64,000 nucleotides of DNA from Haloarcula litorea (GTDB lineage Archaea > Halobacteriota > Halobacteria > Halobacteriales > Haloarculaceae): NCBI RefSeq assembly GCF_029338195.1, contig NZ_CP119780.1:186001-250000 (forward strand), read 5' to 3'. Below are positions 2,068 through 18,655 of this stretch, piece after piece (positions within the stretch are counted from its first letter, which is position 1; each line of letters begins with the position of its first letter). A model generated the notes under the pieces. It worked only from the letters and a program-made list of their open reading frames with translations. It had not been told where the DNA came from and did not search any database. The position numbers and the translations under genes are program-made.

Positions 2068-2529
2068 GAGACGACGATAGATGCTCTACACAATTAACCG
2101 TTCGAAGTCAAACGTCGGGGCGGCTCTGGAGAGGGGAGCCGTCCTCGCGAAGGTTGAAACACCCTTTTGTTCCTCGTACAGACCGACTGAGCAGCAGGTA
2201 CACAGAGAGAGCAGGCAAGCGGAGGCAGCGTCTGACCGTAGCCTTGGACTCCAGCAGCGCACTCGCATCGACTGCCGAGCACGTCTCCGTAATCGGGGGG
2301 AACGGTCACACTCTCGTAGCCGTTAGTTCACCCGCGGAAGTCCCCCGACGAGTCCCAGTGGACGTGACCGGGCGAGTGCCGATCGCCTCGGTCAGTCTCC
2401 CGACGTTATACAATCGTCGGACGGGCTATCACGCGGTCCGGGTGCTCCGTCGCTCTCTCCGGTTATCCGGGCTCGAGCCGGACGTTCGATATCCACGTTT
2501 TATTAGTCACTCTGGCGGAATCGGGAACT
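2068..2529. other. Intergenic region with promoter of the RHH gene
   Basis: About 460 bases without a convincing ORF. Its right end has a TATA-like TTTTATTAG at about 2497-2505, roughly 25-33 bases before the ATG at 2530, fitting a leaderless haloarchaeal promoter. Longer plus-strand frames across this region are arginine/serine-rich and look like non-coding translation. Confidence 0.5.
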
Positions 2530-3075
2530 ATGCCGAGTGACCGCGTCACGGTATCACTTGACGAGGAGTCCAGGGAAGCGCTGGAGAGTCTGAGCGAACA
2601 GACCGACGGCAGTCGGAGCGAGGTGATCCGGGAGGCGATCGCGTTCTACGCGGCGAACTTCGAGTCGGCACGAGCGAGCGACAGCGATCACCTGCAGACC
2701 TACTACGAGATGCTCTCGACGGGCGAACACGTCCTCCTGGACGTCGACCTGTTGCACGCGTTCCTGGACCAGGTCGCGGAGCCGGAGGATCGGGACGACG
2801 AGTTCCTCGAGACGATCGACCGGGTCGCGGAGTATCACGCACAGGAGTACGCCGAGCGGTTCGATTCGCTCGAAGACGTCCTGGACTGGCTCTCGGTGTG
2901 TGGGTTCCTGACCGTCCGTGGAGCCGACGAGGGCAGCTATCACGTCGTCTTCCCCTCGGAGTCGTTGCGGTGGTTCATGACCCGGTTCATCCGGGGAAGC
3001 GTCGCGGACCTGGACTTCGACGTCGAGATCGAGGAGAGCGTCTCGAAGGTCCTCTTTACCGAGACGGAGCGGTGA
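2530..3075 (+). CDS. Ribbon-helix-helix (CopG/MetJ-type) regulator
   Basis: A predicted 181-aa DNA-binding regulator. The N-terminal 45 residues are a clear ribbon-helix-helix domain: beta strand DRVTVSLDEES, then REALESLSEQ, then the turn GSRSEVIREAI and helix AFYAANF. The remaining 130 residues are acidic and probably form an effector or dimerisation domain of a type found in haloarchaea. It lies 137 bases upstream of the Nramp/hydantoinase operon on the same strand. Nested inverted repeats in that gap are plausible binding sites, so local regulation of the operon is inferred. The ligand is unknown. Confidence 0.8.
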   Translation: MPSDRVTVSLDEESREALESLSEQTDGSRSEVIREAIAFYAANFESARASDSDHLQTYYEMLSTGEHVLLDVDLLHAFLDQVAEPEDRDDEFLETIDRVAEYHAQEYAERFDSLEDVLDWLSVCGFLTVRGADEGSYHVVFPSESLRWFMTRFIRGSVADLDFDVEIEESVSKVLFTETER

Positions 3076-3110
3076 CCGTTCGTATCTCTGTGCATCCGCT
3101 CGGCCGATTC

Positions 3111-3197
3111 GTGCACGCGATCACACTGATTGTGAACTGTCTGCACACGGTTCTCAACAACCCTTTTTACCGGTTCTCTGCACCCTGTCACTGGGTG
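3111..3197 (+). promoter_or_regulatory. Inverted repeats and TATA box before the Nramp operon
   Basis: GTGCA (3111-3115) pairs with TGCAC (3142-3146) and encloses TCACA-CTGAT-TGTGA (3121-3135). A CCCTTTTTACC TATA-like stretch follows, and then CACCC (3181-3185) with GGGTG (3193-3197). The repeats flank the likely basal promoter, which suits operator sites for the ribbon-helix-helix protein encoded just upstream. Binding is inferred from position only. Confidence 0.4.
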
Positions 3198-3212
3198 TCA
3201 ACGACATCATTA

Positions 3213-4421
3213 ATGACTCTCGTTCAACGACTCAAAGCCGTCGGGCCGGGCGCGATGGTTGCAGCCGCCTTCATCGGCCCCGGGACGGTCACGACCGCGA
3301 GCGTAACGGGCGCGGAGTTCGGCTACGCGCTCCTCTGGACGATCGCCTTCTCGATCGTCGCGACGATCGTCCTGCAGGAGATGAGCGCACGACTCGGCCT
3401 CGTCTCCGGCGAGGGGCTCGGCGAGGCGCTCCGTGAGCGGTTCGACAACCGAGCGGTCGAGTACGTGAGCACCTTCCTGGTCGTCGGCGCGATCGGGATC
3501 GGGACCGCCGCCTACGAGGCCGGGAACATCCTCGGCGGGGCCGCCGGGCTCGCGACCATCACCGGCGTGAGTTCGACGATCTGGGGCGTCGTGATGGGGC
3601 TCGTCGCGGGCGTCCTGCTGTACACCGGCCGGTACAAGCTGATCGAGCGGGCACTCGTCGGCCTCGTCGCCGTGATGGCCCTCTCGTTCGTCGCGTCGGC
3701 GGCGCTCATCGGGCCGGACTTCGGCGCGATCGCGCTGGGGTTCGTCCCGGGCGTCCCCTCGGGTTCGCTGTATCTCATCACGGGGCTGATCGGGACGACC
3801 ATCGTCGGATACAATCTGTTCCTGCACGCGAGCAACGTCCAGGAGCGGTGGGGCGGCCCCGAGGACATCGGCCGCTCTCGGACCGACACCGTCATCTCGA
3901 TCGCCGTCGGTGGGATCATCACGATCACGATCATGGTCACCGCGGCAGCCGCCTTCGAACCCGGGACGCAGATCAGCGACGTCGGTCGGATGGCCGAACA
4001 GCTCCGGCCGATCGCGGGGCCCTACGCGGAGCTGTTCTTCAGCATCGGGCTGTTCGCCGCCGGCTTCACGAGCGCGACCACGGCCCCGCTGGCGGGCGCG
4101 TGGGCCACGACGGGCGCGCTGGGCTGGGACTCCGACCTGCAGAGCACCCGCTTTCGCGCCGTCTGGGGCACGATCCTGAGCGTCGGCGTCCTCTCCGTGC
4201 TCCTGGGGGGTAGCCCCGTCGAGATCATCGTCTTCGCCCAGGTCGTCAACGGCATCCTGCTCCCGATCGTGGCGATCTTCCTGATCTACGCGATGAACCA
4301 GGACGCGCTCCTCGGCGAGTACACGAACGGGCGGGTCGCGAACGCACTCGGCGCGATCGTGACGATCGTCGTCGTGTGGCTCGGCGTCCGGACGCTGCTC
4401 AGCGTGGCCGGGGTGTTGTAG
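3213..4421 (+). CDS. Nramp-fold transporter lacking metal ligands
   Basis: A predicted 402-aa integral membrane protein with about eleven hydrophobic helices in Nramp (SLC11/MntH) order, but the metal site is gone. In helix 1 the canonical DPGN is GPGT (residues 22-25), so both Asp and Asn are lost. In helix 6, around residues 198-204, the usual MPHNLYLHS reads VGYNLFLHAS, so the metal-binding Met is Val and the His is Tyr. It therefore probably does not carry Mn or Fe. The next gene follows immediately (TAG then ATG) and encodes a hydantoinase/oxoprolinase subunit. Bacillus YcsG, also Nramp-related, sits with 5-oxoprolinase genes, so import of 5-oxoproline or a hydantoin-like substrate is a reasonable inference. 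ATG 3213 was chosen to begin just before helix 1. Confidence 0.85.
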   Translation: MTLVQRLKAVGPGAMVAAAFIGPGTVTTASVTGAEFGYALLWTIAFSIVATIVLQEMSARLGLVSGEGLGEALRERFDNRAVEYVSTFLVVGAIGIGTAAYEAGNILGGAAGLATITGVSSTIWGVVMGLVAGVLLYTGRYKLIERALVGLVAVMALSFVASAALIGPDFGAIALGFVPGVPSGSLYLITGLIGTTIVGYNLFLHASNVQERWGGPEDIGRSRTDTVISIAVGGIITITIMVTAAAAFEPGTQISDVGRMAEQLRPIAGPYAELFFSIGLFAAGFTSATTAPLAGAWATTGALGWDSDLQSTRFRAVWGTILSVGVLSVLLGGSPVEIIVFAQVVNGILLPIVAIFLIYAMNQDALLGEYTNGRVANALGAIVTIVVVWLGVRTLLSVAGVL

Positions 4422-6425
4422 ATGGCAGGCCGGAGAATCGGCGTCGACGTCGGCGGGACCTTCACCGACGTGACGTTGGCGCTCGACGGCGACCTCGTGA
4501 CCGCGAAGGTCCCGACCACCGAGGAACAGAGCGAGGGCGTGATGGCCGGCATCGAGAAGGCCTGCGAGGAGGCGGGCGTCGACCCCGAGACGCTGACCGA
4601 GTTCGCCCACGCGATGACGGTCTCGGTCAACGCGCTCCTCGAGGAGGACGGTGCGAAGACCGCACTGGTCACGACCGAGGGGTTCCGGGACGTCCTGGAG
4701 ATCGGTCGGCAGGACCGGCCGTCGCTGTACGACCTCGACGCCGAGAAGCCGACGCCGCTGATCCCCAGACGCCGCCGGTTCGAGGTCGCCGAGCGGACGA
4801 CCCCCGACGGGGTCGAGCGGTCCGTCAACGAGGACGAGGTCAGGGCGGTCGCAGAACGAATCCGCGAGCGCGACGTGGAGGCCGTCGCCGTCTCGCTGTT
4901 GCACGCCTACGCGCACACCGACAACGAGGAACGGGTCGCGTCGGTGCTGCGGGAGGAGCTCGCGGTCCCGGTCTCGGCCTCCCACGAGGTGCTCGCCGAG
5001 TTCCGCGAGTACGAGCGGACGTCGACGACCGCCGTCGACGCGTACGTCCGCCCGGCGATCGACCGGTACGTGAGCCGGCTGACGGAGCGCGCGCGGGACC
5101 GCGGCGTCCCACAGCCGCGGATCATGCAGGCCAACGGGGGTACCACCGACGCCGACACGGTCAGAGAGAACGCCGTCTCGACCGTCCTCTCGGGACCCGC
5201 CGCGGGCGTCGTCGGCGCGAGCGCGATGGCCGGCGGCGAGGACGACGACCAGTCGGGGCTCGTCACCTTCGACATGGGCGGGACCTCGAGCGACGTGAGC
5301 CTCGTCCGCGACGGCGAGGCCGAGCGGACCACCGAGGGCGTCATCAACGACCGGCCGATCAAGACGCCGATGGTCGACATCGAGACCGTCGGCGCGGGCG
5401 GCGGGTCGATCGCCTGGGTCGACGCCGGCGGCGCGCTCCGGATCGGACCGCGGTCCGCCGGGGCCGACCCCGGGCCGGCCTGCTACGGCAACGGCGGGAC
5501 GGAACCGACGGTGACGGACGCGAACCTCGTCCTCGGGTACATCGGCGCGAGTACCAGCCTCGGCGGCGAGATGTCGCTGGACGCGGAGGCCGCGTACGAC
5601 GTCCTGTCGGACCTCGCCGACGAGGCGGGGATGGACGGGCCCCTGGCGGCGGCCCGCGGCGTCTACCGGGTCGCGAACGCGAACATGACGCGAGCGATCC
5701 GCTCGGTGACCGTCGAGCGGGGCCACGACCCCCGGAAGTTCGGGCTCGTCGCGTTCGGCGGTGCCGGGCCGATGCACGCGATCGCCATCGCCGACAGCCT
5801 CGACATCGACCGGGTGGTGATCCCGCGAGCCTCCGGCGTCCTCTCGGCGTACGGGCTGCTCGCGGCCGACGAGAAGCGCGACGCGGTCCGGACCCACCAG
5901 CGCTCGCTCGCGGAGGTCGACCCCGAGGCGGTCGACGCGGTGTACGAGGAGCTGACGGAGGAACTGCTGGCCGAGGTCAGCGACCGGGAGCGCGCCAGCG
6001 TGGCGTGCTCGGCTGACCTCAGGTACGCCGGGCAGAGCTTCGAGCTCGCCGTGGACGTCGACCGGCCCTTCGACGCCGAGGCGGCGGGCGAGCGGTTCGG
6101 ACGGGCCCACGAGTCCGCCTACGGCTACCGGACTGACGAACCGGTCGAGCTGGTCAACTGTCGCGTGACCGCGACCGTCGCACGGACCACGCCGTCGATC
6201 GAGTACGCCGGCGGCGGCGATCCGCGGAAGGAGACCCGCGAGGCGGCCTTCGGCGACGGAACCCACGAGACGCCGGTGTACGGCCGCGAGCGACTCCCTC
6301 CCGGCGAAATGGTCGACGGACCCGCCATCGTCGAGGGCGACGAGAGCACCGTCGTCGTGCCGCCCGCCTGGGACGTCCGGGTACGCGACGACGGCGCGCT
6401 GATCGCGGAGGTGCGAGACGAATGA
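4422..6425 (+). CDS. hyuA: Hydantoinase/oxoprolinase A subunit
   Basis: A predicted 667-aa protein of the HyuA / N-methylhydantoinase A / 5-oxoprolinase family, whose members hydrolyse cyclic amides with ATP or act in acetone/acetophenone carboxylases. The N-terminal Hydant_A_N domain opens with the ATPase-fold phosphate motif RIGVDVGGTFTDVTLA. The second phosphate motif is FDMGGTSSDVSL near residue 285, with LSGPAAGVVGA just before it. GAGGGSIAWVD and a C-terminal domain beginning near residue 500 follow. The length is normal. The start codon abuts the transporter stop and the end overlaps hyuB by ATGA, so the genes are translationally coupled. The exact substrate (hydantoin, 5-oxoproline or a related lactam) cannot be decided from the sequence. 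Confidence 0.92.
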   Translation: MAGRRIGVDVGGTFTDVTLALDGDLVTAKVPTTEEQSEGVMAGIEKACEEAGVDPETLTEFAHAMTVSVNALLEEDGAKTALVTTEGFRDVLEIGRQDRPSLYDLDAEKPTPLIPRRRRFEVAERTTPDGVERSVNEDEVRAVAERIRERDVEAVAVSLLHAYAHTDNEERVASVLREELAVPVSASHEVLAEFREYERTSTTAVDAYVRPAIDRYVSRLTERARDRGVPQPRIMQANGGTTDADTVRENAVSTVLSGPAAGVVGASAMAGGEDDDQSGLVTFDMGGTSSDVSLVRDGEAERTTEGVINDRPIKTPMVDIETVGAGGGSIAWVDAGGALRIGPRSAGADPGPACYGNGGTEPTVTDANLVLGYIGASTSLGGEMSLDAEAAYDVLSDLADEAGMDGPLAAARGVYRVANANMTRAIRSVTVERGHDPRKFGLVAFGGAGPMHAIAIADSLDIDRVVIPRASGVLSAYGLLAADEKRDAVRTHQRSLAEVDPEAVDAVYEELTEELLAEVSDRERASVACSADLRYAGQSFELAVDVDRPFDAEAAGERFGRAHESAYGYRTDEPVELVNCRVTATVARTTPSIEYAGGGDPRKETREAAFGDGTHETPVYGRERLPPGEMVDGPAIVEGDESTVVVPPAWDVRVRDDGALIAEVRDE

Positions 6426-8083
6426 GTGACGAACCCGAACCCACGACCGAGGGACAGAACGGCGGCTCCGGCGGCGTGTCCGAGACGGGCGGGGAGATCG
6501 ACCCCGTGACGCTGGAGATCCTCCGGAACAAACTGGAGAGCGTCGCCACGGAGATGGGCCACGTCCTCATCCGCGGCGCGTACTCGCCGAACATCAAGGA
6601 GCGACAGGACTGCTCGACCGCGCTCTTCGACGCGGCCGGACGGATGGTCGCACAGGCCGAACACATCCCGGTCCACCTCGGGGCGATGCCCGACGCGGTC
6701 GACATCGTCCTCGAGAAGGACCCCCAGCCCGGCGACGTGTTCGTCGTCAACGACCCGTTCGAAGGGGGGACCCACCTCCCCGACATCACGCTGGTCTCGA
6801 CGATCGCACCCGACGACGAGGTGATCGGGTTCGCGGTGTCGCGAGCGCACCACGCCGACGTCGGCGGCAGCGCACCCGGGAGTATGCCGCCGGGAGCCCA
6901 GGAGATCTACGAGGAGGGGCTCCGGCTGCCGGCGGTCCGGCTCGTCGAGGAGGGTGAGCAAAACGACGCGGTCCACGAGCTGATCCGCTCGAACGTCAGG
7001 ACGCCCGACGAGCGCGAGGCCGATCTCAGGGCCCAGCGCGCCGCGAACGACAGGGCGGAGGAACGCGTCGGCGAGTTGCTCGACGAACACGGGCCGACGC
7101 TGCTCGACGCGTTCGACGCCGTCATCGACTACTCTCGCGAGCGGGTCGAGACCGAACTCGACGACCTCCCGGACGGGACGTACCGAGCGAGCGACGTCCT
7201 CGAAGGTGACGGGGTGACGGACCACGACATCCCGATCCGAGCGACCGTCACGATCGACGGACCGTCCGTCGACGTCGACTTCGACGGGACGGCCGACCAG
7301 GTGGCCGGCAACCTGAACGCGCCGCTCTCGGTGGCAAAGAGCGCGGTGTACTTCGTCGTCCGCGCGATCACCGACCCGGAGATCCCGCCGAACCACGGCT
7401 GCTACGAGCCGGTCTCGGTGTCGGCCCCGGAGGGATCGGTGCTCAACCCCGAGCCCCCGGCGGCGGTCGTCGGCGGCAACGTCGAGACGAGCCAGCGGGT
7501 CACGGACGTCACGCTGGCGGCGCTGGCCCGGGCGGTCCCGGAGGAGGTCCCAGCCGGCAGTCAGGGGACGATGAACAACCTCATCATCGGCGACCGGAGC
7601 GGCGAGTTCACCTACTACGAGACGATCGGCGGCGGGTTCGGCGCTCGCCCCGAGAAAGACGGGATGGACGGCGTCCAGGTCGGGATGACCAACACGCTCA
7701 ACACGCCCGTGGAGGCGATGGAGACCGAGTACCCGCTCCGCCTGGAACGGTACGCGCTCCGGCCCGGCAGCGGCGGCGACGGCCGGTACCGGGGCGGACT
7801 AGGTCTCGAACGGACCGTGACCGTCGAGACCGACGCGACCGTGTCGCTGCTGACGGAGCGCCGGCGGACGGCCCCCGCCGGGGTCGACGGCGGCGAGGAC
7901 GGCGCGACCGGCGTGAACCTCGTCGACGGCGAGGAGGTGCCCGCGAAGGCGTCGATCGACGTCGAGGCGGGCACGACCGTCTCGATACTGACGCCCGGCG
8001 GTGGCGGCCACGGCGACCCGGACGAGCGCTCCCGGGCCGCGAGCGACGCCGACCGTCGCGACGGGAAGGTCGACGACTCGTGA
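6422..8083 (+). CDS. hyuB: Hydantoinase/oxoprolinase B subunit
   Basis: A predicted 553-aa HyuB-family subunit that pairs with the A subunit encoded immediately upstream (ATGA overlap). After a disordered, Gly-rich 25-residue head, the conserved core starts with DPVTLEILRNKLESVATEMG. FVVNDPFEGGTHLPDI, SRAHHADVGGSAPGSMP and, near the end, YPLRLERYALRPGSGGDG follow, all typical of the family. The C-terminal Ser/Asp-rich tail is haloarchaeal in style. It overlaps the racemase-like gene by GTGA. It acts in the cytoplasm with HyuA to open a cyclic amide. Confidence 0.92.
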   Translation: MSDEPEPTTEGQNGGSGGVSETGGEIDPVTLEILRNKLESVATEMGHVLIRGAYSPNIKERQDCSTALFDAAGRMVAQAEHIPVHLGAMPDAVDIVLEKDPQPGDVFVVNDPFEGGTHLPDITLVSTIAPDDEVIGFAVSRAHHADVGGSAPGSMPPGAQEIYEEGLRLPAVRLVEEGEQNDAVHELIRSNVRTPDEREADLRAQRAANDRAEERVGELLDEHGPTLLDAFDAVIDYSRERVETELDDLPDGTYRASDVLEGDGVTDHDIPIRATVTIDGPSVDVDFDGTADQVAGNLNAPLSVAKSAVYFVVRAITDPEIPPNHGCYEPVSVSAPEGSVLNPEPPAAVVGGNVETSQRVTDVTLAALARAVPEEVPAGSQGTMNNLIIGDRSGEFTYYETIGGGFGARPEKDGMDGVQVGMTNTLNTPVEAMETEYPLRLERYALRPGSGGDGRYRGGLGLERTVTVETDATVSLLTERRRTAPAGVDGGEDGATGVNLVDGEEVPAKASIDVEAGTTVSILTPGGGGHGDPDERSRAASDADRRDGKVDDS

Positions 8084-8796
8084 CCCGCGTCGGTCTGGTC
8101 GTCCCCTCGTCGAACACGACCGTCGAGCCGGAGTTCCGCGACGCGCTCCCCGCCGAGTGGACGGCACACACGGCCCGGATGCCGCTTGAAGACGTGACCG
8201 CGGACGCACTCGACGAGATGGCCGACGACGCCGAGCGGGCGGCCTCGCTGCTCTCGCACGCGTCGGTCGACGGCGTCGCGTACGCTTGTACGACCGGGAG
8301 CCTCCTGCACGGCCCCGGATTCGACGCGGCGTTGGAGGCACAACTCTCCGAAGCCGTCGGAGGTCCGGCGGTGGCGACCGCACGCTCGGTCGTCCGCGCG
8401 CTGTCCGCACTCGACGCCGATCGCGTCGCCGTCGCGACGCCGTACACCTCGGAACTGAACGAACGGGAGCGCGAGTACCTCGCCGACAACGGCTTCGAGG
8501 TGGTCGCGCTCGACGGGCGCGAACTCGTCGCGAACACCGCCATCGGCGAACTGACCCCCGCGGCTGCGAAACGGCAGGCCCGGTCGGTACTTCAGGCGGC
8601 ACCGAACGCGGAGGCGCTGTTCGTCTCCTGTACGAACTATCGGTCTCTCTCGGCACTGTCGTCGATCGAAGCGGAGTTCGGCGTCCCGGTAGTGTCGAGC
8701 AACGCGGCGACGCTCTGGGACCTGTGTGATCGACTCGGTGCCCAGCCGGCTCTGGAGCTCCGACTCGCGGCCGAGACGTCCACAGGGCAGCACTGA
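8080..8796 (+). CDS. Asp/Glu racemase / maleate isomerase family enzyme
   Basis: A predicted 238-aa enzyme of the Asp/Glu/hydantoin racemase superfamily, closest in pattern to maleate cis-trans isomerase and arylmalonate decarboxylase-like proteins. The N-terminus is VGLVVPSSNTTVEPEF. Two catalytic-cysteine regions are visible: YACTTGSLLHG near residue 68 and LFVSCTNYRS near residue 185. Start is GTG 8080, overlapping the hyuB stop. As the last gene of the operon it could racemise or isomerise the carbamoyl-amino acid or hydantoin handled by HyuAB. Hydantoin racemases belong to this superfamily, but the precise reaction is inferred. Confidence 0.85.
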   Translation: MTRVGLVVPSSNTTVEPEFRDALPAEWTAHTARMPLEDVTADALDEMADDAERAASLLSHASVDGVAYACTTGSLLHGPGFDAALEAQLSEAVGGPAVATARSVVRALSALDADRVAVATPYTSELNEREREYLADNGFEVVALDGRELVANTAIGELTPAAAKRQARSVLQAAPNAEALFVSCTNYRSLSALSSIEAEFGVPVVSSNAATLWDLCDRLGAQPALELRLAAETSTGQH

Positions 8797-13081: not shown

Positions 13082-16000
13082 TCAGTCGTCAGCGTCGAAC
13101 AGAACCCCGAACGTCTTCCGCTCGGCGAGTCGGAGGTGTTTGTTGAAGGTCGGCTGTGTGATGTCGAGTCGGGTCGCGACCTCGCTCCCGTCGTTCTCCC
13201 GGGGCCACTCGAAGTAGCCCGCTGAGAGTGCGGTCCGTACCACCTCCAGCTGTCGGTCGGTCAGTTCCGATCTGACTCGTTCGCTGAGCTCCGACGGCGT
13301 CCGGTTCCGTCGCTGGTGCTGGCGCTGGGCGGTGAGTTCGAGCGACGGGGCGACCTCCTGCAGTCGCTCGACGAACGACCGCACGTCGGCGTGTCTCGGT
13401 ACCTCGACCAGTATCGTCGTCTCCTCCGGGTCTGCGACGGCCTCTCGGAGCACGCCACCGTACTCGGCGATCGGTGCGCCGAACCAGTCGGTCGCGTGGG
13501 CCTCGACCAGTGTCGAGGACGAGTCGCTGGTGATGAGGTCCACGGATCCGGGCAGCCGTCGCTCGGCGATCTCCATCACGTCCTCTTCCTCCTCCCCCGT
13601 GAAACCGAAGTAGAGGCTCGTCGGGCCGTCCTGCTTGGCGGCCGTCCGTTCGAGCCGAACTCGACAGTCGGCCGCGGCGGCCGCGCGTGCGAACGACAGC
13701 GCGTCGCCCGGCCCGCGGAACTCCAGTTCGACCGTCTCGTCCGACTCGAGGGCCCGCCGCCGCTCGATCGCCGCCAGGGCGTTGGCGATCGTGGCCCCGA
13801 GTTGTGACAGGACGTCCCGTTCACGCTCGTCGAAGGCGTTCGGTGACTCGGAGCCGATGGTCAACACCCCGCGCGTGATCCCGTCGTACGTCAGCGGGAC
13901 CGCACAGAGCGACTGGTGGCCCGCCGAGAGGCCCGCTCGCCGCCAGTCGTCGGCCGGTCCCTCACCGACGAGCGAGTTCTCGACGGCCAGTCTGTCGGTC
14001 CGCCAAGCGTCGATCGCGGGATGTGGATCCGCCGTCCCGCTCGCCGTCGTCAGGTCCATCGACTCGACGTATCCCTCCGGCGCACCCACGATCGCGCGGG
14101 CCGCCAGCCGGTCGGAGCCGGCGTCGATGCCGCCGATCCACGCGAGGGCGTACGGTCCCGTGTCGGCGAGTCGTTCACAGACCGCCCGCTCCACCTCGGC
14201 TGCGCTCGATGCCTCGGTGATGGCGGCCTCGACCTGTTGTGTCAGCCGAGCGATCCGGTCGAGCCGCTCCGCACGCTCGGTCTGTGTGCGCAGCTGCTCT
14301 TCCTGCGCGGCGAGGCGTCGCTGTCCCTCCAGGTGATTGAGTGCGGCCTCCAGCGTCGCGGCGAGGATATGTGCAGCCTGAACTGTCCCAGAGGTCAGCG
14401 ACCCATCAGGGGTACCGACCAGAAGTGTGCCGTGATTCCCGAGCGAGAGCGCCCGCCACGCCGCGAGCTCGGCCAGCCCTGCCGGTAGTTCGGTCTCGGC
14501 ACGGTCGCCGAGGAAACCTGTCGGGTCGTCGCCACCGTCGGAGGCGACGACGGTCCCGGCCGCGAACCCCTCCCAGAGCGCTCCGTCACCCGGTTCGATC
14601 GGCTCTGCCGCCGCCTCCGACGGCAACTCCCCGGCCAGCGCCTCGGGCCGGAGGACGCCCCCCTCGTCGTCGTAGAGGAACGCCCCGACCGCGGGGAGGT
14701 CGAGTGTCTCGGCGGCCGCTTTCACGGCCATCCGCGTCGCCTCCGTGGGAGTGTCCGCAGTGGCGAGATCCTCCGTCGCGTCGTCGAAGGATGCGATACG
14801 CCGCTCCCGTCGTTTGCGTTCGGTGACGTCCCGGCTGACGATCACGACCCGCGTCTGTCCGCCCTCCCACGCGGTCGGATAGTAGTCCGACTGAACCCAG
14901 CGAGTCTCGCCGTCAGTTCGCCGGATCCGGTACTCGTGTGAGTAGCTGTCAGATGTCGTTCCTGCCTCGACATCGCCGACGATGCCCTCCACGAACGCCC
15001 GATAACCGTCTGCATCGTCGGGATGGAGCGTGTCGAAAAAACCGTTCTCGTGCGCGCTGCTGATCTCGTCCAGCGATCGTCCCCAGATGTCCTCGTACCC
15101 GGAGCTGACGTAGTCGGGTGCCTGTGACCCCGACGTGATCGCCTCGGCGCGCGTGATGAAGATCGCCTCGTCGATCCGATCGAGGACCTCGCTCAGTCGC
15201 CGCTCGGTGCGGCGTCGTTCCGTGACGTCGCGGTTGAGAGCGACGCACCGCAGTTCACCGCCGAGTTCGATCGTCGTCCCCTTCACGTCCAGCCAGCGAG
15301 TTTCGCCGTCACTGGTCTCGACGGCCCACTCCGTCTGCTCCGGCCCGTCCGACTCGACGACCGCCTGGACCAGCTCCCGCGCCCGGTCCATCGTGTAGCC
15401 GCGCTCACCCGGACTGTAGCCGCTGATACCCATCTCGAGGATCTGGTCCCGGTCGTAGCCCAGCAGTTCACAGAACGTGTCGTTGACGTCGACGAGTTCT
15501 GCGGTCTCTGGATCGTGAACCGTGATCGAATCAGTCACCCCGTCGAAGATCTGTTCGTACTCGCGCTCGCGTCGCTTGCGTTCCGTGATGTCTCTCGAGA
15601 TCGCGAGGAACCGTTCCTCCCCGCCGATGAGTGCGCGTGTCGGATTCACTTCGAGCCAGACGCGCCTCCCGTCTCTCGTCTCGATCGCCTGCTCGTACGG
15701 ACTGATCTCCTCCCCGTCGATCACGCGCTCGATGATCTTCGGAACCCGATCCGGTGGCAGGTCCGCGTCGTCGTCCTCGACGAGCAGTCCCTCGGCACCC
15801 ATCTCCAGTATCCGTTCCCGGTCGTACCCCGTCAGTTCACACATCGTCGAGTTGATATCGATCAACTCGCCGGTCTCGGGGTCGTGGACGGCGATGATGT
15901 CGTTGACGCCGTCGAATATCTCCTCGTACTCGCGCTCGCGACGCTTCCGCTCCGTGATGTCGTGCAGGAGTGCGACCACACGCTGCTCGCCGGCGATCTC

Positions 16001-18655
16001 GCCCAGCTCGTGTCTGGCCCGGACCCAGACCGTCTCGCCGTCTGCCGCCTCCAGGGGCCACTCGAACTCCTGTCCGCCTTCGGTGACGGATTCTCGGATC
16101 ATATCCCTGGCATCGTCGGCACTGACCCCCTCGTCAGTCGCCTGGAACTCCGACAGCGGTCGTTCGACGAACGCCTCGCGGTCGTAGCCGAGCAGCTCGG
16201 CCACCTGCCTGTTCGCGTTCACCACGTCACCGGTCTCCGGATCGTGGATCACGATCCCGTCCCCGGCCATCTCGAATATCTGCTCGTACTCCCGCTCCCG
16301 CCGTCTCCGCTCGGTGATGTCCTCGACGCGACCGACGACGCGGTCGACGACGCCGTCCTCGTTCTCGATCGGGAACCGAGTGACTGTCACCCACCTCGTC
16401 TCCCCGTCCCGTTGGATGCGATACTGTCCCTCGTAGGCGGCCTGTGGGTCGCCCGCCGCTACCTCGTCGATCAGCCGCTCGATGTCCGCCTCGTACCGCG
16501 CGCGGTCGTCCGGATGAGCCGCCTCGACGAACGACGTCGGCCGCTCGTAGAGTTCCTCGACGGGTCGTCCGTAGATGTCCTCGTACGCGGGATTGATGTA
16601 GAGCATCTCCGAGAAGTCGGCGGTCGCGAGGTAGACGATCTCGTCGATGTGTTCCGCGATGAGGCGGAAGCGACGTTCGCTCTCACGGAGTTCTCGGTCC
16701 TGTTCGACCCTGTCGAGCGCCGTCGTCGCGTGTCGCGCGAGGATCCGTGCGGCGTCCAGTGTGACGTCGTCGATCCGACCGGCACCCGGCGCGGCGGCGG
16801 CGACGACACCGTGGCCCCCGAGCGGGACGATCACGACCTCCCCCTTCGGCTCGCCATCGGACACCGTCTCGGGGTCGACGACACGCATCTCCCGCTCGAG
16901 ATACGCGTCGTAGGCTGGCGTTCCCGGTTCGATCACGCCGGGCTCGGATTCACCGTCCGAGAGCCCGAGCAGACCGCCGCCCGTCGCGACCGGCGTCAGC
17001 TCGCCCTTATCGTCCGGGTCGCCCCAGCACGTCGGTGCCGTGAGATCGAGCACCTCGGAGGCGGCGTCGGCGACGGCCTCGAAGACCGCCGTCGCGGTGT
17101 CGGCGTTCTGTACCTCTGCGGTCGACTCGTGGAGGTGACGGACCATTCGCTCGCGGCGCTTGCGCTCCGTGATGTCCGTATACCAGACGTACGCATCGGA
17201 GTCCCGCTCCGCGTCCCGATCGGCGTCGAAGTGGATGACTCTGAAGAGGAACTCTCGGGTGCCGGTCGCCGTGACGCGTGGTGCGACCGCTTCGACGCGG
17301 TCGCCGCCGGCCGCTCGCTTCCGGAACTCCTCGAAGTCCGTGCGTTCCGACTCCGGAACGACGGCCTCGGCGACGGTCGATCCCACGATCTCCTCGGAAG
17401 TGAACCCGAACACGTCCTCGAAAGCGGGGTTGATCTCCCGTATCACCGGCTCACCGCCCTCGAACTGGACTCGTACGACCGGATCGGGGTTGTTCTCGAA
17501 CAGCACCGACCGCCGGTCGCGTTCCCGTTCGAGCTGTCTCTCGTACTCGGTCCGTTCGGTCACGTCGCGCGAGAGGGCCAGGACACGGTCCTCGCCGGCG
17601 ATCGTGGCCGGTGCCAGATTCGCCTCCAGCAGTCGTCGCTCGCCGGCCGCCGTTTCGACCGACCACTCGACAGTCTCCGTCTCGCCCGTCGCCGCGACCC
17701 GTCGCTGAATCTCGTAGACATCCTCACCTCCGAGCCCGTCCCCGACCGCCCCAAGCCCGCCGAGATCCATCTCGAACAGGGTCTCACGGCTGTACCCCGT
17801 CAGCTCGGTCATCGTCTCGTTGACGTCGACCATCTCCTCGGCCCAGGGATCGTGGACGGAGATGACGTCGTTGACGTTGTCGAACACCTGCTCGTACCGT
17901 CGTTCCTGCCGCCGACGCTCCGTGACGTCGACCGACGTCGAGAGCACGAGCTCACGGCCGCCGACGTGGACCGTTCGCAGGCTCGCCTCCGTCCACCGGA
18001 TCCGACCGTCGGCCGTCTCCAGTGGCCACTCGAGTTCGATCGCTCCGTCCTGCTCGGTGACACTCGCGACGGCCCGTGTGATCCGCTCGTGGTCGTACCC
18101 CGGGAGCTCGGCGGTGAACTCGCCGACCTGCATCGACTGTAGCTCCGCTCGATCGTAGCCGAGCAGCTCACAGAGCGCGTCGTTGGCGTGCAACATCTCA
18201 CCCGATTCGGGGTCGTGGAGGGTGGCGACGCCCGCGACGTTGTCGTAGATCTCGCGGACGCTCGTCAGCGCGTGTTCGCGCTCGACGACCCTCCGCAGGC
18301 GTTCGGCCACGAGCGACGGGTCCGTCTCGACGAGTTCCCGCGGAAGCCACTCCGTCGCACCCGCGGACAGGACGTCGCCGACCAGATCGTCGTCGCTACC
18401 AGCACTCAGAACGACGACGGGAGTGTTCGGTCGTTCCGCCCTCCACCGCCGAACGATGTCGGCGGAATCGTGGCTCCCTCCAGTGTCGTCGATCACCAGA
18501 CAGTCGGTCTCCGATGCGGGGTCCCACTGGTTTTCCCGCGACGGCCCCCTATCGATCGATAGATCGGTGTCACGCTCCAAGTACGACCAGCCCTCGCAAG
18601 ATGTCTCTCCCCCGATCAGTGAGAAAGAGAGCGTGCGTGAACTTCCCCCAAACAT
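13082..18655 (-). CDS. Giant multi-PAS/GAF regulator with HTH_10 output
   Basis: A predicted 1857-aa soluble sensor-regulator. A receiver-like but phospho-acceptor-poor segment (about 45-130) is followed by three PAS domains (about 135-500), a GAF (about 505-650), five more PAS domains (about 660-1285), two GAF domains (about 1290-1600), a bacterio-opsin-activator (BAT) domain (about 1610-1780) and a C-terminal HTH_10 helix-turn-helix (LTDRQLEVVRTALSAGYFEW; VATRLDITQPTFNKHLRLAE). PAS blocks repeat YEQIFDGVNDIIAVHDPETGE and GYDRE almost verbatim, indicating recent internal duplication. No histidine kinase catalytic motifs occur, so signals probably act directly on DNA binding. The start ATG 18655 is followed by a weakly conserved head. 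The ligand is unknown. Confidence 0.88.
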   Translation of the reverse strand: MFGGSSRTLSFSLIGGETSCEGWSYLERDTDLSIDRGPSRENQWDPASETDCLVIDDTGGSHDSADIVRRWRAERPNTPVVVLSAGSDDDLVGDVLSAGATEWLPRELVETDPSLVAERLRRVVEREHALTSVREIYDNVAGVATLHDPESGEMLHANDALCELLGYDRAELQSMQVGEFTAELPGYDHERITRAVASVTEQDGAIELEWPLETADGRIRWTEASLRTVHVGGRELVLSTSVDVTERRRQERRYEQVFDNVNDVISVHDPWAEEMVDVNETMTELTGYSRETLFEMDLGGLGAVGDGLGGEDVYEIQRRVAATGETETVEWSVETAAGERRLLEANLAPATIAGEDRVLALSRDVTERTEYERQLERERDRRSVLFENNPDPVVRVQFEGGEPVIREINPAFEDVFGFTSEEIVGSTVAEAVVPESERTDFEEFRKRAAGGDRVEAVAPRVTATGTREFLFRVIHFDADRDAERDSDAYVWYTDITERKRRERMVRHLHESTAEVQNADTATAVFEAVADAASEVLDLTAPTCWGDPDDKGELTPVATGGGLLGLSDGESEPGVIEPGTPAYDAYLEREMRVVDPETVSDGEPKGEVVIVPLGGHGVVAAAAPGAGRIDDVTLDAARILARHATTALDRVEQDRELRESERRFRLIAEHIDEIVYLATADFSEMLYINPAYEDIYGRPVEELYERPTSFVEAAHPDDRARYEADIERLIDEVAAGDPQAAYEGQYRIQRDGETRWVTVTRFPIENEDGVVDRVVGRVEDITERRRREREYEQIFEMAGDGIVIHDPETGDVVNANRQVAELLGYDREAFVERPLSEFQATDEGVSADDARDMIRESVTEGGQEFEWPLEAADGETVWVRARHELGEIAGEQRVVALLHDITERKRREREYEEIFDGVNDIIAVHDPETGELIDINSTMCELTGYDRERILEMGAEGLLVEDDDADLPPDRVPKIIERVIDGEEISPYEQAIETRDGRRVWLEVNPTRALIGGEERFLAISRDITERKRREREYEQIFDGVTDSITVHDPETAELVDVNDTFCELLGYDRDQILEMGISGYSPGERGYTMDRARELVQAVVESDGPEQTEWAVETSDGETRWLDVKGTTIELGGELRCVALNRDVTERRRTERRLSEVLDRIDEAIFITRAEAITSGSQAPDYVSSGYEDIWGRSLDEISSAHENGFFDTLHPDDADGYRAFVEGIVGDVEAGTTSDSYSHEYRIRRTDGETRWVQSDYYPTAWEGGQTRVVIVSRDVTERKRRERRIASFDDATEDLATADTPTEATRMAVKAAAETLDLPAVGAFLYDDEGGVLRPEALAGELPSEAAAEPIEPGDGALWEGFAAGTVVASDGGDDPTGFLGDRAETELPAGLAELAAWRALSLGNHGTLLVGTPDGSLTSGTVQAAHILAATLEAALNHLEGQRRLAAQEEQLRTQTERAERLDRIARLTQQVEAAITEASSAAEVERAVCERLADTGPYALAWIGGIDAGSDRLAARAIVGAPEGYVESMDLTTASGTADPHPAIDAWRTDRLAVENSLVGEGPADDWRRAGLSAGHQSLCAVPLTYDGITRGVLTIGSESPNAFDERERDVLSQLGATIANALAAIERRRALESDETVELEFRGPGDALSFARAAAAADCRVRLERTAAKQDGPTSLYFGFTGEEEEDVMEIAERRLPGSVDLITSDSSSTLVEAHATDWFGAPIAEYGGVLREAVADPEETTILVEVPRHADVRSFVERLQEVAPSLELTAQRQHQRRNRTPSELSERVRSELTDRQLEVVRTALSAGYFEWPRENDGSEVATRLDITQPTFNKHLRLAERKTFGVLFDADD

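Follow-up and report, generated by a model that had tools for sequence, protein, structure and literature searches.

Among proteins of the Nramp fold, only YcsG/PxpT has genetic evidence for uptake of 5-oxoproline (pyroglutamate). This protein, described as PxpT in C. glutamicum, YcsG (also MntG) in B. subtilis and PxpG in C. difficile, lacks the DPGN and MPH motifs and is encoded in a 5-oxoprolinase operon; it is required for growth on 5-oxoproline, whereas its loss has no effect on growth on glucose (PMC13274462). However, one report found more Mn2+ in cells that overexpress YcsG (PMC10448178). Other ligand-less Nramp-related proteins have been described as well. An “orphan” outgroup within PF01566 was assigned a signature of helix-3 Tyr..Asn and helix-6 Val-Tyr and Thr by Cellier in 2023 (PMC10606218), and a 2026 preprint by Ray, Berry and Gaudet distinguishes “G-motif” groups, all of which except the NRMT-like group and G-motif 3 it calls “entirely uncharacterized” (PMC12873925). 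Missing ligands alone are therefore not new, but the sections of these two papers that treat such groups assign them no functions and contain no operon analysis. On the enzyme side, Sulfolobus acidocaldarius grows on pyroglutamate and its extracts display ATP-stimulated activity; the HyuA/HyuB-type gene pair Saci_0368/0369 is the candidate two-subunit 5-oxoprolinase, with the gene-enzyme link unproven, and no Nramp-like transporter is described there (PMC6507225). Our literature searches found no paper linking an Nramp with a hydantoinase and nothing relevant on a haloarchaeal 5-oxoprolinase.

The stretch analysed here, a window of 64,000 nucleotides from Haloarcula litorea, carries a five-gene block with all genes on the plus strand. 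It begins with a ribbon-helix-helix (RHH, CopG-type) protein, a likely operon regulator (positions 2530 to 3075; Pfam RHH_1, 36.9 bits), and almost every haloarchaeal locus fetched has an RHH homologue upstream of the transporter gene in the same orientation. The intergenic promoter region (3076 to 3212, plus strand) contains an A/T-rich TATA-like box, ACAACCCTTTTTA, together with TTCACA-like half sites; both this box and upstream motifs of the form TTCAYA are found again across 15 aligned upstream regions, and the half sites may serve as operators. The 402-residue Nramp-fold transporter (ATG at 3213 to TAG at 4421; Pfam Nramp, 341.5 bits) is followed by HyuA, the ATP-binding A subunit of a hydantoinase/oxoprolinase (4422 to 6425; Pfam Hydantoinase_A, 322 bits, and Hydant_A_N, 162 bits), HyuB, the B subunit (6422 to 8083; Pfam Hydantoinase_B, 685.7 bits), and an enzyme of the Asp/Glu-racemase/maleate-isomerase superfamily (8080 to 8796; Pfam Amdase, 137 bits). 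The transporter stop codon TAG is followed immediately by the HyuA start codon ATG at 4422, HyuA and HyuB overlap by ATGA, and HyuB and the racemase-like gene by GTGA, exactly the layout of an abutting stop and two 4-base overlaps given in the initial annotation. The RHH gene is an addition to the block described there.

An AlphaFold model of the transporter (pLDDT 90.4, pTM 0.89) predicts a LeuT-type Nramp fold, and the top Foldseek matches of this model are Nramp-family structures (TM 0.83–0.87), the best being the Mg2+ carrier EleNRMT (PDB 7qia, TM 0.87), the closest solved fold. Alignment to solved Nramps, by which motif positions were assigned, puts helix-1 GPGT (residues 22–25; 3276 to 3287, plus strand) in place of DPGN and helix-6 VGYN (residues 198–201; 3804 to 3815, plus strand) in place of MPH. 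The Asp, Asn and Met ligands are indeed missing, as first noticed, and the His ligand is absent too. In helix 3, where the transporter has YEAGN (residues 101–105; 3513 to 3527, plus strand), both proton-pathway residues of canonical Nramps are replaced, Asp by Glu (Glu or Gln at this site) and Glu by Asn105, whereas helix-10 QVVNG (residues 343–347; 4239 to 4253, plus strand) keeps the canonical Gln343 but not the residue at Asn346. None of the site positions has a conserved acidic residue. All 11 HyuAB-linked haloarchaeal homologues in the tree set carry GPGT and VGY without variation, and the two motifs are near-invariant over the whole fetched set (one VSY and one GPGTI being the exceptions), whereas canonical Nramps fetched in the same set retain DPGN and MPH, arguing that the pattern did not arise by chance. 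Judged by sequence, the protein lacks the DPGN/MPH and helix-3 proton-pathway residues that define a canonical Nramp (SLC11/MntH), although it shares with this family the fold, about 24–29% identity and the helix-10 Gln. Its residues Y101, N105, T195, V198 and Y200 agree with the orphan-group consensus as named in PMC10606218.

The retained Gln343, the fold shared with Nramps and with EleNRMT, which transports Mg2+ and Mn2+ through a non-canonical site, and the Mn2+ rise upon YcsG overexpression could all suggest that the transporter still carries Mn2+ or Mg2+ for use by the enzymes encoded next to it, a role that has been claimed for YcsG/MntG, the operon link then reflecting cofactor supply. 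However, EleNRMT (29% identity) retains an Asp in helix 1, whereas the haloarchaeal protein has other residues in place of Asp, Asn, Met, His and the helix-3 Glu alike and no conserved acidic residue at the site, and PxpT is needed on 5-oxoproline yet dispensable on glucose; we regard a metal substrate as very unlikely.

The neighbourhood, whose conservation had been proposed as a check on the initial annotation, proved strongly conserved: HyuB lies within about 4 kb of the transporter in 37 of the 39 haloarchaeal genomes that have the transporter, and in intact operons among the fetched haloarchaeal loci HyuA directly follows the transporter stop. In two haloarchaeal members (L061 and L062), HyuAB was not found nearby. 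HyuB is present in 136 of 145 Halobacteria, whereas PxpA occurs in only 17 of the 145 and in none of the genus Haloarcula, a distribution that fits a general role of HyuAB in 5-oxoproline recycling. In the H. litorea genome, searched piecewise, the operon HyuB is the single match to Hydantoinase_B (PF02538). A search of viral contigs found no relative.

The strongest evidence for the substrate, and new in the present analysis, is the pairing seen in bacterial members of the same clade, which share about 44–60% identity with the haloarchaeal transporter. PxpABC is an ATP-dependent 5-oxoprolinase unrelated to HyuAB, with 5-oxoproline hydrolysis as its known activity. It adjoins the transporter in 33 of 80 relatives collected by motif, all in bacterial loci, and the same arrangement is found in the halophile Natroniella, with a transporter of 60–61% identity. 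Two Bacteroidota that nest among the PxpABC-linked relatives in the tree instead have, next to the transporter, a fused HyuA-HyuB protein, which carries in one chain the Hydantoinase_A and Hydantoinase_B domains found in adjacent subunits in the window. The occurrence of both partner types in one clade suggests that their common activity is that of a 5-oxoprolinase, not a hydantoinase. No such neighbours were seen in the checked flanks of other Nramp-related and canonical branches, except for the YcsG-type clade. Taken together, the missing ligands, the operon with a probable 5-oxoprolinase and a second, unrelated 5-oxoprolinase beside the relatives make the transporter most likely an importer of 5-oxoproline rather than of metal.

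A 5-oxoprolinase neighbour is absent in 43 of the 80 relatives, and a search of these for another shared neighbour returned only housekeeping-type genes and frame-shadow artefacts. These relatives, together with the two unlinked haloarchaeal members, would suit a transporter of a different small organic solute, such as an amino acid or another carboxylate, whose adjacency to 5-oxoprolinases is regulatory or historical. That reading has very little chance of being correct: the clade pairs independently with two unrelated 5-oxoprolinases, and all 23 genomes without a linked enzyme encode a candidate elsewhere (PxpA in 21 and HyuB in two), although PxpA is common in such bacteria, so that this co-occurrence may in part reflect its background frequency.

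The window's own enzymes identify the substrate less sharply. HyuA and HyuB have PDB relatives in 7hk5 and 6yra, they match best to caprolactamase models and to a PDB chain that bears the name N-methylhydantoinase, no NCBIfam equivalog model scores above its own cut-off, and family models do not separate 5-oxoprolinases, N-methylhydantoinases and lactamases. The fourth gene belongs to the racemase superfamily. Arylmalonate decarboxylase has a single active-site cysteine. Although Amdase is the best Pfam match of the fourth gene product, its two catalytic-type cysteines speak against this identity: Cys70 and Cys184 stand where racemases and maleate isomerases would have them and are present in all 19 homologues checked. 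With maleate isomerases as best PDB matches, the protein fits the two-cysteine isomerase/racemase branch. An operon of this content could instead serve a different cyclic amide (hydantoin, N-methylhydantoin or some other lactam), with HyuAB acting as an ATP-dependent N-methylhydantoinase or lactamase and the fourth gene product as a hydantoin-type racemase. We consider this unlikely, since same-clade bacterial members pair with PxpABC, since near-universal HyuAB suits the recycling of a universal metabolite, and since Pfam recognised no N-carbamoyl-amino-acid hydrolase among the operon genes. HyuAB is probably a 5-oxoprolinase, as its context favours 5-oxoproline. Of the initial suggestion of cyclic-amide import, 5-oxoproline is clearly preferred over hydantoin on account of the PxpABC of the bacterial relatives.

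The YcsG parallel drawn at the outset holds for an Nramp-fold protein in a 5-oxoprolinase operon, but not for a common branch. Placement of YcsG/PxpT in the same clade as the haloarchaeal transporter was ruled out by a search of Bacilli, which revealed a second, distant clade, assigned as YcsG-type by its gene order pxpA, transporter, D-Glu_cyclase, pxpB and compared here through orthologues so identified rather than through the B. subtilis and C. glutamicum sequences themselves. Its members share with the haloarchaeal protein a Tyr at the helix-6 His site (Tyr200) and Asn in helices 3 and 10 (Asn105 and Asn346), yet they are only 21–23% identical, have motifs of their own (GPGF and GGY) and partner with PxpABC instead of HyuAB. 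YcsG itself (9a52_A) matches the transporter model in Foldseek at 24% identity and was not returned by sequence search. The two 5-oxoprolinase-linked clades separate in the tree with support of 100/100 and 97/94, and a test of whether both belong to a single larger group neither showed this nor rejected it (p-AU 0.42). The proposal that the Nramp fold was “repurposed” is unproven: it presumes ancestral metal transport, whereas our tree is silent on whether metals or organic solutes came first, and a published rooted tree has the Nramp-related proteins that lack the ligands at its base, as a paraphyletic group (PMC12873925). It is conceivable, though we hold it only tentatively, that both of these deeply separated clades carry 5-oxoproline through a shared Tyr/Asn pocket; transport of a small organic acid rather than of metal would then be common across the Nramp fold and might be its ancestral function, canonical metal Nramps would be a derived branch, and the Mn2+ role reported for YcsG would be indirect.

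We thus propose that the operon is probably a unit for 5-oxoproline uptake and recycling, in which an Nramp-fold importer feeds a HyuAB-type 5-oxoprolinase. The transporter would import 5-oxoproline via a pocket of the LeuT type that lies among helices 1, 3, 6 and 10, where Gly22/Thr25, Asn105, Val198/Tyr200 and Asn346 would stand in for the metal ligands. Helix 8 was inspected for a sodium (Na2) site, which might indicate the coupling ion, and its residue pattern was not decisive. In the cytoplasm, HyuA-HyuB would open the lactam using ATP to yield glutamate, the two-cysteine racemase-like enzyme would probably interconvert D- and L-substrate, and the RHH protein would probably regulate the unit.

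There are many ligand-less Nramp-related proteins, and automatic annotation names them “Nramp family divalent metal transporter”; one large group of them now has a specific, testable proposed substrate, supported by its pairing with two enzymes that are unrelated yet would share one activity. The proposal bears on the conflict over YcsG as an importer of Mn2+ or of 5-oxoproline, makes it testable whether the Nramp fold went from organic solutes to metals, and suggests a route by which haloarchaea may take up 5-oxoproline.

The Nramp-fold transporter gene (3213-4421) lies in a compact block, assigned by Pfam, with genes for an RHH protein (2530-3075), HyuA (4422-6425), HyuB (6422-8083) and a racemase-like enzyme (8080-8796), all on the + strand. 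Coordinates confirm the initial annotation in that the transporter stop directly abuts the HyuA start (4421/4422) and that HyuA/HyuB and HyuB/racemase-like gene each overlap by 4 bases. Both cysteines of the racemase-like enzyme are present in 19/19 homologues. Upstream of the transporter (3076-3212, and the same region in loci L033-L058), TTCATAC/TTCACA half sites recur 5' of a conserved TATA-like box; they may be the operator to which the RHH protein binds. Elsewhere in the window, a 1857-residue open frame (13082-18655, - strand) contains many PAS-like repeats, and its C-terminal region resembles bacterio-opsin activator regulators.

Alignment to solved Nramps bears out the reported absence of the Asp, Asn and Met ligands, with DPGN replaced by GPGT and MPH by VGY. 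In a wider alignment, the transporter carries G22, T25, N105, V198, G199 and Y200 and retains Q343. Charged positions conserved in the 53-member clade (E56, R60, R74, E145, H205, R223 and D225) include none of the helix-1, 3, 6 or 10 site positions. The Nramp fold is shown by prediction: in the AlphaFold model (pLDDT 90.4, pTM 0.89), helices 1 and 6 are predicted to be broken as in LeuT-fold carriers, and the best PDB match is the Mg2+ carrier EleNRMT, followed by canonical Nramps. The sole other PF01566 protein of this genome (L002, G000:C1:498957-499955) shows helix-1 GPAT, and its helix 6 lacks MPH; canonical motifs occur in neither of the two Nramp-family proteins found. A further haloarchaeal Nramp-family group (L067, L071, L072 and L175), placed on a long branch, combines helix-1 GSGS with helix-6 TALWPN; no 5-oxoprolinase gene was seen beside its members.

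Many of 292 Halobacteria carry the clade at 53-91% identity, sharply set apart from other Nramp-family proteins, which reach 35% or less. The neighbourhood proved to be conserved: HyuB lies within about 4 kb in 37/39 clade-bearing genomes (all but G047 and G077), as counted in the first 145 Halobacteria genomes by combining two search results by eye. HyuA and HyuB are directly downstream on the same strand in 26 of 30 fetched haloarchaeal loci, the racemase-like gene following in 20; among the other four, one is ended by a contig end, one has HyuAB nearby but inverted and two lack HyuAB. None of the operon neighbours occurs within about 8 kb of 10 other PF01566 loci of Halobacteria. HyuB is found in 136/145 Halobacteria and PxpA in 17/145, with no PxpA found in the searched Haloarcula genomes. 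In L061 (G077) and L045 (G230), the transporter gene is immediately followed by the racemase-like gene, with no HyuAB between, which suggests that the racemase-like enzyme acts on the transported substrate. H. marismortui pNG700 (L077) has the glutamate dehydrogenase gene gdhB (2493-3788) a few kb upstream of its operon; the dehydrogenase would use the operon's expected product.

A motif search over 84,980 genomes recovered at least 80 loci of the clade, of which 33 adjoin homologues of PxpABC, a 5-oxoprolinase unrelated to HyuAB, 4 adjoin HyuA/HyuB (2 haloarchaeal and 2 Bacteroidota, the latter with a fused HyuA-HyuB of 1251 residues) and 43 adjoin neither. Gene orders include transporter-pxpA-pxpB-pxpC (Bacteroidota, Kangiella), pxpA-transporter-pxpB-pxpC (Natroniella) and transporter-pxpB-pxpA-pxpC (Alkalihalobacillus). 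Among 23 genomes examined of the 43 unlinked relatives, PxpA is encoded elsewhere in 21 and HyuB in the other 2, PxpA being common among these groups. One Alkalihalobacillus algicola genome (L207 and L208, G292:C4 and C5) carries two complete pxpABC operons whose ligand-less Nramp-related transporters differ, one belonging to the GPGF and the other to the GPGT clade. In Streptomyces sp. TRM49041 (L092), the surroundings of a GPGT-clade transporter include pxpABC, a GntR-like gene and a D-glutamate-cyclase-family-like gene, an arrangement that resembles the C. glutamicum locus regulated by PxpR.

The GPGF clade, a second Nramp-related clade with GPGF and GGTVGGY motifs, occurs in 47/151 Bacilli and 10/198 Actinomycetes, nearly always beside pxp genes. 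Two of its loci read pxpA, transporter, one intervening gene, pxpB; in L237 the intervening gene encodes a D-Glu_cyclase-family protein. This is the B. subtilis order ycsF-ycsG-ycsI-kipI. Because of that order and the 50% identity reported between PxpT and YcsG (PMC13274462), we assign both to the GPGF clade. The initial comparison with YcsG holds for an Nramp-related type beside 5-oxoprolinase genes, but YcsG itself belongs to the second clade; its model (9a52_A) shares only 24% identity with the window transporter. Asn105, Tyr200, Asn346 and Gly347 are common to both clades, in place of the Glu, His, Leu and Ser of canonical Nramps; of these four, Tyr200 and Asn346 are absent from the GPGS group. 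A grouping test (p-AU 0.42) is compatible with either common descent or convergence of the two clades. C. glutamicum needs PxpT to grow on 5-oxoproline, a result backed by complementation (PMC13274462). For YcsG, Mn2+ import has been reported, together with the caution that earlier 5-oxoproline data may reflect polar effects (PMC10448178). An orphan signature of Nramp-related proteins has been described (PMC10606218), and MntG/YcsG has been placed in 'G-motif 3', the remaining groups, NRMT-like excepted, being called uncharacterised (PMC12873925). Two-subunit 5-oxoprolinase candidates are described in Sulfolobus (PMC6507225), and our literature search found no paper naming Nramp together with hydantoinase.

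In the tree, support is 97/94 for the clade of the window's transporter and 100/100 for canonical Nramps. Since the two fused-HyuAB Bacteroidota nest among PxpABC-linked Bacteroidota, the transporter appears, on this phylogeny, to have been retained through a change of partner enzyme. Nearest to the haloarchaeal copies is the halophilic bacterium Natroniella, with its PxpABC arrangement (88/90 in a thinned tree); plausibly, the transporter was transferred from halophilic bacteria and then placed before resident archaeal hyuAB.

The transporter has lost its metal ligands, sits in an operon and is paired across its clade with two unrelated 5-oxoprolinase types. In the proposed pathway, 5-oxoproline would be taken up via a Tyr200/Asn105/Asn346 pocket and hydrolysed to glutamate by HyuAB in an ATP-dependent manner; the two-cysteine enzyme would carry out racemisation, and the RHH protein may regulate the operon via the repeats upstream of the TATA-like box. 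Context and sequence make a strong case for a putative second branch of 5-oxoproline transporters with the Nramp fold, which in archaea would have a HyuAB-type partner.
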